64,000 nt of DNA, from assembly GCA_014138725.1 (NCBI GenBank), contig JACJID010000002.1:1130001-1194000 (forward strand). Direction: 5' to 3'. The first letter of the stretch is position 1; each line of letters opens with the position of its first letter. This document shows, in pieces, positions 11,138-18,522 of the stretch. The notes beneath the pieces are model-generated. The model worked only from the letters and a program-made list of their open reading frames with translations, was not told the DNA's origin and ran no database searches. The translations under genes were made by a program, and so were the position numbers. Source of the stretch: Kutzneria viridogrisea (GTDB taxonomy: Bacteria > Actinomycetota > Actinomycetes > Mycobacteriales > Pseudonocardiaceae).

Positions 11138-12415
11138 TCACCCGTTCTTGCGAGTGCCGCGCGCCTGGGTGGCACGCGGCTTGGCGGGTTGCTTCGCGCC
11201 GCTCTGCTTGGCCGCGGGCTTCTTCCTCGCCGCGGCGGCGCGCGGCGCGGGCTTGGTCTCGGTCGGCGCGGGCTTGGTCTCAGTCGGCTCGGTCTCGACC
11301 GGCTCGGGCACGGTCGCGGACGCGCGCACCGGGGTCGCGATGGCAGCGGCGGACACCACGGGCCGTGCGGGCTCGACGGCCTTCTCGATCGGTGCCGACT
11401 CGATGTCCAGCGGCTGCTGGTCGACGTCGAGCTTGCGGGTCCTCGTCGTGGTGCTGCTGGAACGGGGCGCCGAACGGGCCGAGGCCTGCCAGCCGTGCAC
11501 GGCCCGCCATGCGGCTTGCGAGGCGGGCTGACCCTCGCCGTCCTGCTCGGCGCGGGCCGCCGCGATGCGGCTGGTCCGCCCGGCACGGGCCGACCAGGCC
11601 GAGCGCTTCGGGGTGCGGGCGGTGGGCACGTCCACCGACTCGGCCTCGGCGATCGGCTCGGCCGCCTCCAGCCTGCGGTAGCGGGGCTTGCCGTTCGAGC
11701 TCATCGCCCTGCCGACCAGGAACAGCGTGTGGCGCCACAACTTGCGCTGCTTGACCACCGACTCCAGCTCACCGAGGGTGGTGTTGATCAACAGCTCGTC
11801 CGGCCAGGTCGCCTTGTAGGACACCACAACCGGCGTGTCCTCGCCGTAACCACCCTCGGCCAGCTCCTCGACGAGCTGGCCGGTGCGGGCGGCGGCCACG
11901 AACACGCCCAGCGTCGCGCCGTGCGCCGCGAACTGGCGGATCTGCGTGGCGTTGGGCAGGGCGGTGGCATCCACCCTGGTCAGGATCAGCGACTGGTCGG
12001 TGTCGGTCAGCTCACGACCCACCGCGGACGCGGCGGCCGACACCGGGGACACGCCGGGCACGACCTCGGCGTCCACGCCGATCCGCCGACAGGACTCGAC
12101 CTGCTCACGCACGGCGCCCCACAGCACCGGGTCGCCCGAGCACAGCCGTACCACGCGGAGCCGGTCACGGGCCGCCCGCCGGTAGAGTTCCACGATCTCC
12201 TCGCCGGAAACCCTTGAGCAGTCAACGAGTTCGGCATCGGCACGGGCGTGCTCGCGGACGCACTCGGCGTCGACCACGCTGGGCGCCCAGACGACGACGT
12301 CGGCCGCGGCGATGCGGCGGGCGCCGCGCAGCGTGATCAGGTCAGCAGCGCCGGGTCCCGCGCCGACGAAGGAGACCAGGCCGGTCTTCACTGGTGAGCT
12401 CACAAGCTCGCTCAC
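11138..12415 (-). CDS. cobM: precorrin-4 C11-methyltransferase with a long low-complexity C-terminal tail
   Basis: The first ~255 of 425 residues form a CobM/CbiF methylase: VSFVGAGPGAADLITLRGA, RLCSGDPVLWGAVREQ, VVPGVSPVSAAASAVGREL and VSYKATWPDELL. The enzyme methylates C-11 of precorrin-4. Typical CobM has about 250-260 residues. Here a further ~170 residues follow, first Arg/Ser-rich, then Ala/Pro/Lys/Glu-rich with a TETKPAP duplication and a basic end (RKKPAAKQ, GAKQPAKPRAT). The GTG start lies in the last copy of a 75-bp tandem repeat and is preceded by AGGAGG; its first residues MSELVSSPVK copy the repeat's coding sequence. A shorter start (GTG in the VKTGLV region) would match other CobM proteins better. 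Confidence 0.9.
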   Translation of the reverse strand: MSELVSSPVKTGLVSFVGAGPGAADLITLRGARRIAAADVVVWAPSVVDAECVREHARADAELVDCSRVSGEEIVELYRRAARDRLRVVRLCSGDPVLWGAVREQVESCRRIGVDAEVVPGVSPVSAAASAVGRELTDTDQSLILTRVDATALPNATQIRQFAAHGATLGVFVAAARTGQLVEELAEGGYGEDTPVVVSYKATWPDELLINTTLGELESVVKQRKLWRHTLFLVGRAMSSNGKPRYRRLEAAEPIAEAESVDVPTARTPKRSAWSARAGRTSRIAAARAEQDGEGQPASQAAWRAVHGWQASARSAPRSSSTTTRTRKLDVDQQPLDIESAPIEKAVEPARPVVSAAAIATPVRASATVPEPVETEPTETKPAPTETKPAPRAAAARKKPAAKQSGAKQPAKPRATQARGTRKNG

Positions 12416-12571
12416 GCCTCCTCCTCGCTGACGCTCGTCGAGACCGCGAGGGCTCCAGTGCCCAATGGTGAGCTCGCAAGCTCGCTCATGCCCTCGCCTC
12501 GCTGACGCTCGCCGAACCCATGAGTGGCTCCAGTGCCCAATGGTGAGCTCGCAAGCTCGCTCACAACTGCT
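12391..12571. repeat. tandem ~75-bp repeat (2.5 copies) between cobI and cobM
   Basis: Reading the plus strand, the word GGTGAGCTCGCAAGCTCGCTCA recurs at about 12393, 12467 and 12542 (the first copy has one change), a period of 74-75 bases. Between the words lie conserved blocks CTCGCTGACGCTCG and GGCTCCAGTGCCCA. On the coding strand each unit carries a start codon (GTG, ATG, GTG) and, upstream of it, purine-rich sequence such as GCGAGGAGGAGG. The recurring word is itself partly self-complementary. There are no unique spacers, so this is not CRISPR-like. Confidence 0.9.
12412..12564 (-). CDS. 50-residue repeat-encoded mini-ORF, coupled to cobI and cobM
   Basis: A frame starts at a GTG that overlaps the cobI stop (GTGA) and ends in a TGA that overlaps the cobM GTG start. 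It codes for two 25-residue repeats, each beginning MSELASSPLGTGA; the first continues THGFGERQRGEG and the second LAVSTSVSEEEA. Both ends therefore show the 4-bp overlap normally seen between translationally coupled genes of this operon. It may be a real peptide, or simply a frame that keeps ribosomes moving from cobI to cobM after a repeat expansion. No homologue is known to me. Confidence 0.4.
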   Translation of the reverse strand: MSELASSPLGTGATHGFGERQRGEGMSELASSPLGTGALAVSTSVSEEEA

Positions 12572-13301
12572 CCCCTCTCCCGCGTCGAGGCGGGAGTATC
12601 ACCACGGTGGACAAGTACGGCGCACCGTCCGCCCCTGGCTCCACTTCGGACAGTGGGAGGACCCGTGCCCGAGGGGTGCCGAGGTGCTCGGTGTACACCG
12701 AGCGGTCCAGCGCTCCGGCGGCCTCGATCTCGGCACGCAGCTCGTCGAGCCGTCGACCGCCCTTGTAGGCGACGACCGTACCGCCACCCCGCAGTGCCGC
12801 CCGCAGCCCGGTCACCTCTCGGGTCACCGGGACCACGGTGAGTGACTCCGTGCCCTCCACCAGGTGCAGTCCGGCGGCGCTCGCGGCGGCCTGCATCGCG
12901 GTGATCCCGGGCACCGTGGCCACTTCCACCTCGGGCAGCAGCTCGCGCACCGTGGCCGCGAGGTAGGTGAAGGTGGAGTAGATCATCGGGTCGCCGATCG
13001 TGGCGAAGGCCGCGGTGCCACCGTGTTCGCGCAGGTGCGCGACGACCTCGGCGGCGGCCTCGTCCCAGCGCTGCCTGCGGTGCCGCTGCGGGCCGCGCAC
13101 GTCGTGGTTGAGCGCGAACACCAGGCGTCGCACCGGGGCGTCCCCGGGCAGGTGGTGCCGGATGATCACCTCGGCGTGCCCCTGCTCCTCCTCGGACATC
13201 ACCGGCACGAAGATCCGGCTCGCCCCGGTCAACTCGCGCAGGCCCGCCAGGGTCAGCAGTTCCGGGTCGCCCGGCCCGACACCGATCCCGACCAGTCTCA
13301 T
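12561..13301 (-). CDS. cobI: precorrin-2 C20-methyltransferase
   Basis: A 246-residue tetrapyrrole methylase with the CobI/CbiL pattern: GIGVGPGDPELLTLAGLREL, FATIGDPMIYSTFTYLA (the family's GDP-x-x-YST motif), VATVPGITAMQAAASAAGL and VVAYKGGRRLDEL. It methylates C-20 of precorrin-2 to give precorrin-3A. In mycobacteria and Streptomyces CobI is often fused to CobJ; here it stands alone. ATGA overlap with cobB upstream, GTGA overlap with the repeat mini-ORF downstream. ATG 13301 gives the canonical MRLVGIGVGPGD start. Confidence 0.93.
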   Translation of the reverse strand: MRLVGIGVGPGDPELLTLAGLRELTGASRIFVPVMSEEEQGHAEVIIRHHLPGDAPVRRLVFALNHDVRGPQRHRRQRWDEAAAEVVAHLREHGGTAAFATIGDPMIYSTFTYLAATVRELLPEVEVATVPGITAMQAAASAAGLHLVEGTESLTVVPVTREVTGLRAALRGGGTVVAYKGGRRLDELRAEIEAAGALDRSVYTEHLGTPRARVLPLSEVEPGADGAPYLSTVVILPPRRGRGEQL

Positions 13302-17508: not shown

Positions 17509-18522
17509 TCAGCCCTGGCCGAGCGACCTGGCCAGCTGCGTGAGCGTGTTCACATCGTTGACCTGCGGCTGGCGCTGCCCCGCCGCCGCGCGCACCGCCT
17601 GCTCCGCGCGTGCCCTGCTCGGCTGCTGACCGGTGAGCAGGTCGGCGATGATCGCGGCCTCGGCCACCATGCCCGCCTTGAGCGGGTGGTACGGGAAGGC
17701 CGCGAACAGGTTGAACGACTTGCCCTGGACCCACGCGGCGCCGTCGCCCGCACAGGCGTCGTGCCCCAGCGAGGGCCCGTAGGTGTCGACGTACGTCCCG
17801 CCACCAGCCTTGGCCGCGTTGGCCACCGCCGTGTTCAGCGCGCGCTCGATCGAGTCGAGGTAGCGGTAGTCGCCGTCGGCCATGGGCAGGATGTCCGGGC
17901 AGTAGCCGGTCGGCGGCACGATGCGCGGGTAGCCGATGAGAAGAACCTTCGCCTTCGGCGCGAGCTTGCGGGTCTGCCTGACCACCTCGGTGATGTTCTG
18001 CTCGGTCTTGGCGATGCTGGCCAGCAGGGTGTCCACCCCGTTGACGGTGAAGTGGCGCTGGCAGGGTGCGCCCACCGGGTCGGAGTCACGCAGGGTGGGG
18101 CAGGTGTTCACCACGCTGCCGAACACGCCGTAGTCGTTGCCGCCGATGCCGATCGTCACCAGGTCGGTGTCCTTGTTCAACGCGGCGAACTGCGGCGAGT
18201 TGGTGCCGAACAGCGGCACGCTCTGCGACTTGGTCATGTTGGTGGTGTCCGCCCCACCACAGCTGACGTCGGTGAAGTCCCCGATGCCCAGGCGGGAGGC
18301 CACCCAGGACGGGTAGTTGTTGGTCGACCGCGCGCAGCCGATCGGGCTGAGCCGCATCCACGGGATGAACGGCCCCGAGGTGTACGAGTCACCCAGTGCC
18401 ACGTAGTGGTCGTAGCGAGGTGGTGCTGCCGCCGAAGCGGTGCCAACACCCATCGAGAGCAGTGAGACGACGGCGAGGACTGCGGAGACCAGCGCGCGGC
18501 GCGCGCCCACCCCATGGGTCAT
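17509..18522 (-). CDS. secreted SGNH/GDSL lipase or esterase
   Basis: A 337-residue exported hydrolase. A signal peptide (about 1-32, RRALVSAVLAVVSLLSMGVG then AxA sites) precedes the SGNH blocks: ALGDSYTSG with catalytic Ser46, SCGGADTTN (block II Gly), GIGGNDYG (block III Asn) and FPYHPLKAG (block V His). Several cysteines are placed like those in Streptomyces extracellular lipases of this family, where they form disulphides. The last ~60 residues are Gln/Ala/Arg-rich without a recognised domain. It acts outside the cell on lipid esters. A strong terminator follows. Confidence 0.9.
   Translation of the reverse strand: MTHGVGARRALVSAVLAVVSLLSMGVGTASAAAPPRYDHYVALGDSYTSGPFIPWMRLSPIGCARSTNNYPSWVASRLGIGDFTDVSCGGADTTNMTKSQSVPLFGTNSPQFAALNKDTDLVTIGIGGNDYGVFGSVVNTCPTLRDSDPVGAPCQRHFTVNGVDTLLASIAKTEQNITEVVRQTRKLAPKAKVLLIGYPRIVPPTGYCPDILPMADGDYRYLDSIERALNTAVANAAKAGGGTYVDTYGPSLGHDACAGDGAAWVQGKSFNLFAAFPYHPLKAGMVAEAAIIADLLTGQQPSRARAEQAVRAAAGQRQPQVNDVNTLTQLARSLGQG

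Follow-up and report, generated by a model that had tools for sequence, protein, structure and literature searches.

Repeats between cobI and cobM of Kutzneria viridogrisea: a probable MIRU-type mobile element in start codons

The repeats that separate cobI and cobM in Kutzneria viridogrisea are members of a dispersed family and have not arisen by local duplication. In all probability, they represent a tandem insertion, in RTGA start codons, of a short mobile element of the type of the mycobacterial interspersed repetitive units (MIRUs), with a relay of coupled mini-ORFs. The family is scattered over the genome, lies in RTGA sites of which empty versions exist, keeps its length and an open frame, and carries covarying hairpins. 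The junction was analysed in a window of 64,000 nucleotides, which is the whole stretch of DNA under study.

The cobI-cobM junction

The minus-strand word TGAGCGAGCTTGCGAGCTCACCA occurs three times at the junction with at most one mismatch (12392-12414, 12466-12488 and 12541-12563), and it was matched in none of 100 shuffled controls. TRF gives a period of 74 bp and 2.3 copies. Word search and TRF thus confirm the start-codon-bearing units with a period of 74-75 bp that the initial annotation had described at this place. The distances from TGA to TGA are 75, 74 and 24 bp; of the three copies that had been counted, two are full units and the third is only a 24-bp piece, which reads in frame with CobM (Table 1).

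A mini-ORF of 50 codons, overlapping both neighbours by RTGA, had also been proposed, and the coordinates bear this out. The cobI stop TGA (12563-12561) overlaps the GTG at 12564, and the frame opened there runs for 50 sense codons up to the TGA at 12414-12412. The frame passes through unit 1 because 75 is 0 modulo 3, and it stops at the next RTGA after unit 2 because 74 is 2 modulo 3. The mini-ORF has no match at E≤0.01 in Pfam and NCBIfam. At the position of the Shine-Dalgarno-like (SD-like) sequence that unit 2 places before the GTG at 12415, AGG-N-G is invariant across 35 aligned units.

In Kutzneria sp. 744 and Kutzneria sp. CA-103260, cobI and cobM are joined by the plain overlap CTGTGAAG with zero units, so that the GTGA overlap predicted for a junction without the units is directly visible. 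The same two relatives place the native start of cobM at GTGAAG, with its GTG at 12391, and not within the first copy, where the initial annotation had put it; the native GTG lies 8 codons inside that start (12415). The latter is a second possible CobM start, derived from the element. In the window, the array is placed between GTGA and GTGAAG, and the G at 12564, which precedes unit 1, corresponds to the first base of the empty GTGA sites in the two relatives.

Table 1. Features at the cobI-cobM junction (positions of the window)
Feature	Coordinates	Strand	Evidence or remark
cobM, precorrin-4 C11-methyltransferase	11138..12391	-	TIGR01465 2.9e-72, 242.9 bits, below cut-off 259.65
Partial unit 3, 24 bp, 5' hairpin part only	12391..12414	-	R1 15.3 bits, E 0.0016
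Mini-ORF, 50 sense codons + TGA	12412..12564	-	GTG overlaps cobI stop, TGA overlaps GTG 12415
Element unit 2, 74 bp TGA to next TGA	12415..12488	-	R1 60.3 bits, E 1.5e-17; one of the 35 sequences used to build R1
Shine-Dalgarno-like GAGGAGGAGG	12417..12426	-	sequence; supplied by unit 2 just before GTG 12415
Element unit 1, 75 bp TGA to next TGA	12489..12563	-	R1 62.7 bits, E 2.6e-18; one of the 35 sequences used to build R1
5' hairpin of unit 1	12543..12564	-	GTGAGC / GCTCAC closed on GAGC-TT-GCGA core; family covariation 1-22, 5-18
cobI, precorrin-2 C20-methyltransferase	12561..13301	-	TIGR01467 7.1e-62, above cut-off; its TGA bounds the array on the 5' side

A dispersed family

A genome-wide word search, which the initial annotation had proposed along with the comparison of relatives given above, yielded 25 copies of the 23-mer in the own genome with at most two mismatches, against none for the reversed control. 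A sister word ending in GCGAACCA is present in all seven Kutzneria genomes, its reversed control having one match in the own genome and none in the other six. A sequence-only model, R1, was built from 35 units. As 150 candidates were scored per genome (15-23 in the large searches), copy counts obtained with R1 are lower bounds. The own genome has at least 80 matches at E≤0.1, and the seven Kutzneria genomes have at least 334 at E≤1e-6 (per genome at least 66, 56, 17, 31, 82, 78 and 4), with a typical element of about 77 bp.

The distribution across family, order and class is patchy. Matches are found in at least 64 of 200 genomes and 25 of 46 genera of the Pseudonocardiaceae (E≤1e-5), in at least 117 of 298 genomes and 33 of 77 genera at the level of the order (E≤1e-4), and in at least 16 of 296 genomes and 11 of 115 genera at the level of the class (E≤1e-5), two of these 16 genomes belonging to the order. 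Over 80 named cobI loci, R1 gave three weak matches (E 0.02-0.03). The anatomy of the family was read from 210 distinct Kutzneria elements, which are those near fetched R1 matches and constitute a non-random sample.

Filled and empty sites

Within Kutzneria, both filled and empty versions are found at 15 junctions, namely those of cobM, asd, rluD and 12 more genes. An empty site has RTGA at the start of the downstream gene; in a filled site, the order is R / TGA-GCGAGC...SD...D'TGA / gene. The own genome carries the element at asd and rluD, and both sites are empty in five other Kutzneria genomes; the boundaries are RTGA (G006 was not readable). The 12 further genes with filled and element-free versions were obtained with a chimeric query, and their names are our reading of the N-termini: ruvB, pyrF, ilvN, folB, a sigma-F-like gene, fabH, an MBL-fold gene, nuoF, nuoG, another sigma factor, xseA and a hydrogenase-maturation-like gene. 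In this survey, 81 of 82 loci could be assigned to a gene (the exception being L376). All 42 element-free loci with a match from residue 1 start with ATGA or GTGA; emptiness was called with the 5' word only, and the flanks of L343, L324 and L331 among them may be scars or remnants. Seven loci in which the match does not begin at residue 1 were excluded from this count (L316, L323, L330, L337, L377, L379 and L380).

Two genes are informative as to the exact target. Four empty sites of ruvB read ATGA, and the filled site has A at its 5' end and G at its 3' end; the A of the empty site is retained, and therefore the 5' purine at ruvB is that of the host. Exceptions are the MBL gene and pyrF of G002, which have a 5' G where the empty relatives have A. 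At nuoF, the insertion is preceded at a distance of 10 nt by a TGA, presumably the stop codon of nuoE. Therefore, the target is the start codon and not a stop/start overlap.

Some individual loci have features of their own. At ruvB in the own genome (L377, C2:473300-473700), there is an apparent 3' element remnant, GGCGAGCGTCAGCGAGGAGTGTCCCGTGA, which was missed by the 5' word. The apparently empty fabH site of G005 (L343) ends in GGTGCAGCAGTGA, like the 3' end of an element, and is unlike fabH in L329 and L344, which reads GGTGTCCGCATGA; a scar of excision or deletion is possible. The same start codon may be occupied by different subfamilies across species, as in pyrF (L107, L109, L225) and fabH (L246, L319), which suggests repeated insertion or turnover at one site.

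Ends, length and reading frame

Nearly all Kutzneria elements begin with TGA (203 of 210), and the preceding base is G in 130, A in 73 and never C or T. Among 175 terminal units, 148 have an SD sequence followed by NTGA, N being G in 109, A in 35, T in 3 and C in 1. The new start that they provide is in frame with downstream coding in 137 of the 148; in two, the downstream gene is on the opposite strand, two are in another phase and seven are unclear. Upstream of the 5' start, the positions -8, -9, -11 and -12 are rich in G (94, 92, 77 and 71 of 126), fitting the old SD sequence of the host gene. In 123 of 175 first units, the upstream coding sequence is in phase with the 5' TGA. The other 52 have no recognised co-directional upstream gene ending at this TGA (28 opposite-strand, 20 unclear, 4 in another phase), and therefore upstream coupling is not general.

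A length of 77 bp is shared by 126 of the 148 terminal units, and the distance from TGA to TGA is 2 modulo 3 in 141 and not so in seven. When the 77-bp class is left aside, this still holds for 15 of 22 units (p=0.0009), and it holds for 43 of 47 parsed loci in other genera and families. That the length is so constant at 77 bp could be due to common descent from a single source just as well as to selection. In 22 tandem arrays, the internal spacings are 78, 77, 75 and 74 bp, all 31 steps being 0 or 2 modulo 3; another four spacings, of 33 or 36 bp, were treated separately. In 83 non-redundant units of 77 bp, stop codons occur in frame 0 in none, in frame 1 in 82 and in frame 2 in 39.

The remaining 27 terminal units do not end in SD plus NTGA and stand outside the length test. 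Their mini-ORF is open over the 47 codons read in 19, runs off the locus in one and is closed in seven, of which two are regular short forms of 50 bp (L184) and 47 bp (L189); a 56-bp form also exists among the short elements of Kutzneria. By eye, several of the 19 open units continue into a recognisable gene, as does the 24-bp piece at cobM. Shortened elements with a mini-ORF open downstream, for instance in L130, L016, L024 and L252, give rise to apparent N-terminal extensions starting with VSELASEP.

Variation of the mini-ORF in the 83 units is 0.273 at the third codon position, against 0.271 and 0.294 at positions 1 and 2. The third position is not more variable, and therefore no purifying selection is visible on the peptide; peptide-level selection is not supported. 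The peptide would best be seen as a path for the ribosome rather than as a product.

Two covarying hairpins

The 3' hairpin has the core GAGC-NNNN-GCGA, around which bases -30 to -22, counted back from the new start, pair with bases -9 to -1. Across the 83 non-redundant units, 762 of 913 cells are paired, compared with 645 +- 8 in 300 shuffles (maximum 670), which ignore relatedness, and with 249-429 in slid registers. Up to 35 both-sides changes are found per pair; the pairs at -22 and -23, which lie closest to the core, are almost invariant and for this reason show no excess. The 5' end folds as RTGAGC-GAGC-TT-GCGA-GC(GA or TC)AY. In the same 83 units, positions 1 and 22 are GC in 52, AT in 24, GT in 6 and AC in 1, and positions 5 and 18 are GC in 63, CG in 15, GT in 2, AT in 2 and CC in 1. 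Standard pairs are few at positions 3-20 (20 of 83) and 4-19 (9 of 83), which are mostly tandem G-A mismatches. In other genera and families, where 47 of 57 loci were parsed, positions 1-22 are GC in 24, AT in 20, GT in 2 and AC in 1. Both hairpins emerged from the ungapped 77-bp set and not from the first alignment (A1), on which RNAalifold found a weak consensus of -3.33 kcal/mol.

The 3' region of the elements has a folding energy of -31.4 kcal/mol, against -25.1 for shuffles and -21.9 for native starts. A switch acting by a hidden SD sequence is not supported: the predicted SD accessibility does not differ between elements and native starts (0.37 versus 0.38, p=0.13).

Proposed mechanism and alternative explanations

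The element would enter an RTGA start codon (ATGA or GTGA), leaving TGA at both ends. The old SD sequence and start codon of the host gene would then open the mini-ORF within the element; with about 25 in-frame codons per unit, the mini-ORF would extend to a TGA overlapping the new start, given by the element behind its own SD sequence. Through coupling over 4 nt, a ribosome leaving the mini-ORF could start anew on the interrupted gene, and the element is therefore proposed to be nearly harmless to the operon. In tandem arrays, the relay would be kept either by in-frame units (75 or 78 bp) or by chained coupled mini-ORFs (77 bp). At cobI-cobM, two units and the 24-bp piece would occupy the former GTGA overlap. 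Translation, coupling and a mobility driven by a recombinase are what we infer from the sequence.

The initial annotation had favoured another origin, in which a local tandem duplication of the cobM initiation region made a new small gene. We consider this highly improbable. It would account for the tandem copies and for an ORF that overlaps both neighbours, but the unit is dispersed genome-wide, with copies at the starts of dozens of unrelated genes in the own genome and in the genus, and seems to arrive as a ready-made start-codon cassette. Furthermore, the two Kutzneria relatives have zero units at this junction, the mini-ORF matches neither Pfam nor NCBIfam, and the family peptide bears no sign of purifying selection; the occurrence in tandem is a secondary feature. 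It is just as hard to believe that the product of the mini-ORF, (M/V)SELASEP...SASEE, is a peptide conserved for its function. Although the same peptide frame recurs in several genera and families, the third codon position does not vary in excess, the middle third is highly variable, and hairpin covariation can explain the conserved stretches.

As a second possibility, the initial annotation had envisaged a spreading repeat family. This is nearer the truth; however, it is not a generic extragenic REP, with 137 of 148 terminal units at gene starts. An extragenic palindrome of the REP/REPIN type that depends on a RAYT (Y1) transposase for its movement, with the position in start codons as a by-product, is accordingly regarded as very unlikely. 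The two imperfect, covarying hairpins and a target tied to the element sequence would agree with it, guide-type target choice being a feature of IS200/IS605. Nevertheless, the copies lie in start codons, follow gene orientation and keep the frame, and a Y1 IS200/IS605 or RAYT mobiliser is not supported for Kutzneria, Y1_Tnp (PF01797) being present in none of the seven genomes compared with 41 of 200 genomes of the family. Finally, the repeat could be a transcriptional element that provides the gene downstream with a promoter, a processing site or an attenuation site. The higher folding stability of the 3' region relative to native starts would suit such a role, and in mycobacteria, the senX3-regX3 MIRU region can drive regX3 expression independently of senX3 (PMC4213456). 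As it leaves the lengths of 2 modulo 3, the open frame and the RTGA at both ends unexplained, this explanation is unlikely too.

Comparison with MIRUs and other repeats

MIRUs, reportedly described by Supply et al. in 1997, are in use as a typing marker. They are described as start-codon insertions with a coupled ORF (PMC12548453). The units of senX3-regX3 measure 77 and 53 bp, and MIRUs at this junction are stated to be confined to M. leprae and the M. tuberculosis complex (PMC4213456). The Kutzneria element is alike in many respects. It has a 77-bp unit and shorter forms (56, 50 and 47 bp, compared with the 53 bp of MIRUs; a 53-bp form was not seen among the Kutzneria elements read), it is inserted in start codons with an ORF overlapping by 4 nt, the coupling being predicted here from the sequence, it occurs in tandem copies, and it follows the orientation of the downstream gene, as judged from the 137 of 148 Kutzneria terminal units that are in frame. 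Moreover, a unit lies between a sensor-kinase gene and regX3 in Kutzneria, that is, in the operon that contains the mycobacterial senX3-regX3 MIRU.

RegX3 was found in 119 of 121 genomes of the order. At 30 regX3 loci, the junction could be read in 17, and 13 were without a motif match. The element is present in the own genome (L154, C9:340213-340293) and in G004 (L254), and the junction is empty in another member of the Pseudonocardiaceae (L412). The RegX3 of locus L430 differs in 5 of 226 residues from the solved regX3 2oqr, which we take to be that of M. tuberculosis; on account of this near-identity, the genus g53 is considered to be Mycobacterium. L430 has a 53-bp MIRU-like unit at regX3, and L436 and L437 of the same genus are empty. 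In L438, of the same presumed genus, two MIRU-like units lie upstream of regX3, one of them with extra internal sequence. The genomes of L430 and L438 measure 5.5 and 5.1 Mb, to be set against the stated restriction to M. leprae and the M. tuberculosis complex (PMC4213456).

Differences also exist. R1 scores the mycobacterial units at chance level (L430: 2.7 bits, E 3.1; L438: 4.3 bits, E 0.96; both among 76 matches), and within genus g53, the matches listed include only G314 and G417, each with a single weak match. To the eye, the two kinds of unit resemble each other in a short core, GAGCGCAGCGA, and in the SD region. The Kutzneria family differs by its wider host range, its two covarying hairpins and its target subfamilies. 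The element thus appears to work like a MIRU; R1 does not show shared descent with the mycobacterial MIRU. Because the host belongs to the Pseudonocardiaceae and not to the mycobacteria, we have filed it as MIRU-type and not as MIRU.

Other repeats share part of these features. REP/BIME are dispersed short units with imperfect hairpins and RAYT transposases; the Kutzneria family likewise consists of dispersed short units with subterminal imperfect hairpins, but these lie in start codons with an open frame, and a Y1 transposase is found in none of the seven genomes. MITEs are short and present in many copies, without transposase gene and with a short target duplication. The same applies to the Kutzneria element, with TGA as target duplication; in contrast to MITEs, terminal inverted repeats are not evident by eye in the Kutzneria consensus alignment. 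The search for a parent transposon was limited to PF01797. ERIC/IRU and RUP are, as the Kutzneria element, short interspersed repeats in transcribed regions; to our knowledge, these and similar repeats are neither specific to start codons nor provided with coupled ORFs.

Target choice

Different subfamilies seem to have different targets. Elements of the TGAG type precede DTGAG genes in 79 of 100 cases (the next base being C in 11, A in 7 and T in 3), and elements of the TGAC type precede DTGAC genes in 22 of 24 (Fisher 2e-13). Empty sites, furthermore, allow a comparison of the host purine with base 22 of the element: in 16 cases, the combinations are A/T 6, A/C 3, G/C 7 and G/T 0. In this tally by hand, each combination of gene and subfamily contributes one case, the mixed sigma-factor site is taken as A, and fabH and pyrF of G004 are excluded; p is 0.011 as tallied and up to 0.035 with other choices.

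On the basis of these two associations, it is possible to speculate, tentatively and with more doubt than belief, that the element selects start codons by base pairing, a single-stranded intermediate being guided to ATGAG, GTGAG and GTGAC sites. Bases 18-22 (C-G-A-A-C, C-T-C-A-C or G-G-A-A-C) would be complementary or nearly so to RTGA plus the next base, and the foot of the 5' hairpin would be completed by the target's own letters. If this were true, a mobile element would read translation starts directly and repay its host with a new start.

Implications

All in all, this is a real, dispersed, start-codon-targeting element of the MIRU kind, well outside the mycobacteria, with a mini-ORF that seems built for coupling. 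In the open-licence PMC literature, as far as titles and the beginnings of abstracts are concerned, no such elements were found outside mycobacteria; we do not claim that the element is unpublished. In a review, the mobility and purpose of MIRUs are worded only as appearance and likelihood (PMC12548453). To this picture, the present analysis adds empty sites, two covarying hairpins and subfamily-specific targets. The target, the rules for target and frame, and the hairpins have been made explicit, and the R1 matches (at least 17 to 82 in six Kutzneria genomes, at least 4 in the seventh) together with readable empty sites make the subject testable outside pathogens. The element is situated in the start codons of core genes such as ruvB, nuoF, nuoG, asd, pyrF and cobM, the translation of which is probably maintained. 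Gene starts in annotations can be shifted or extended by it.

Further observations in the window

Rfam gave no match at E≤1 over 11900-13100. On the plus strand, positions 17733-17774 (G+C 0.81) have a weak partial R1 match that covers model positions 29-70 only (14.5 bits, E 0.0028); its score comes close to that of the 24-bp piece, and it is probably due to chance. In CobM, the methylase domain is followed by a long Ala/Pro/Lys-rich tail of about 180 residues (11138-11690, minus strand), and a 21-bp tandem repeat is present in this region at 11243-11292.
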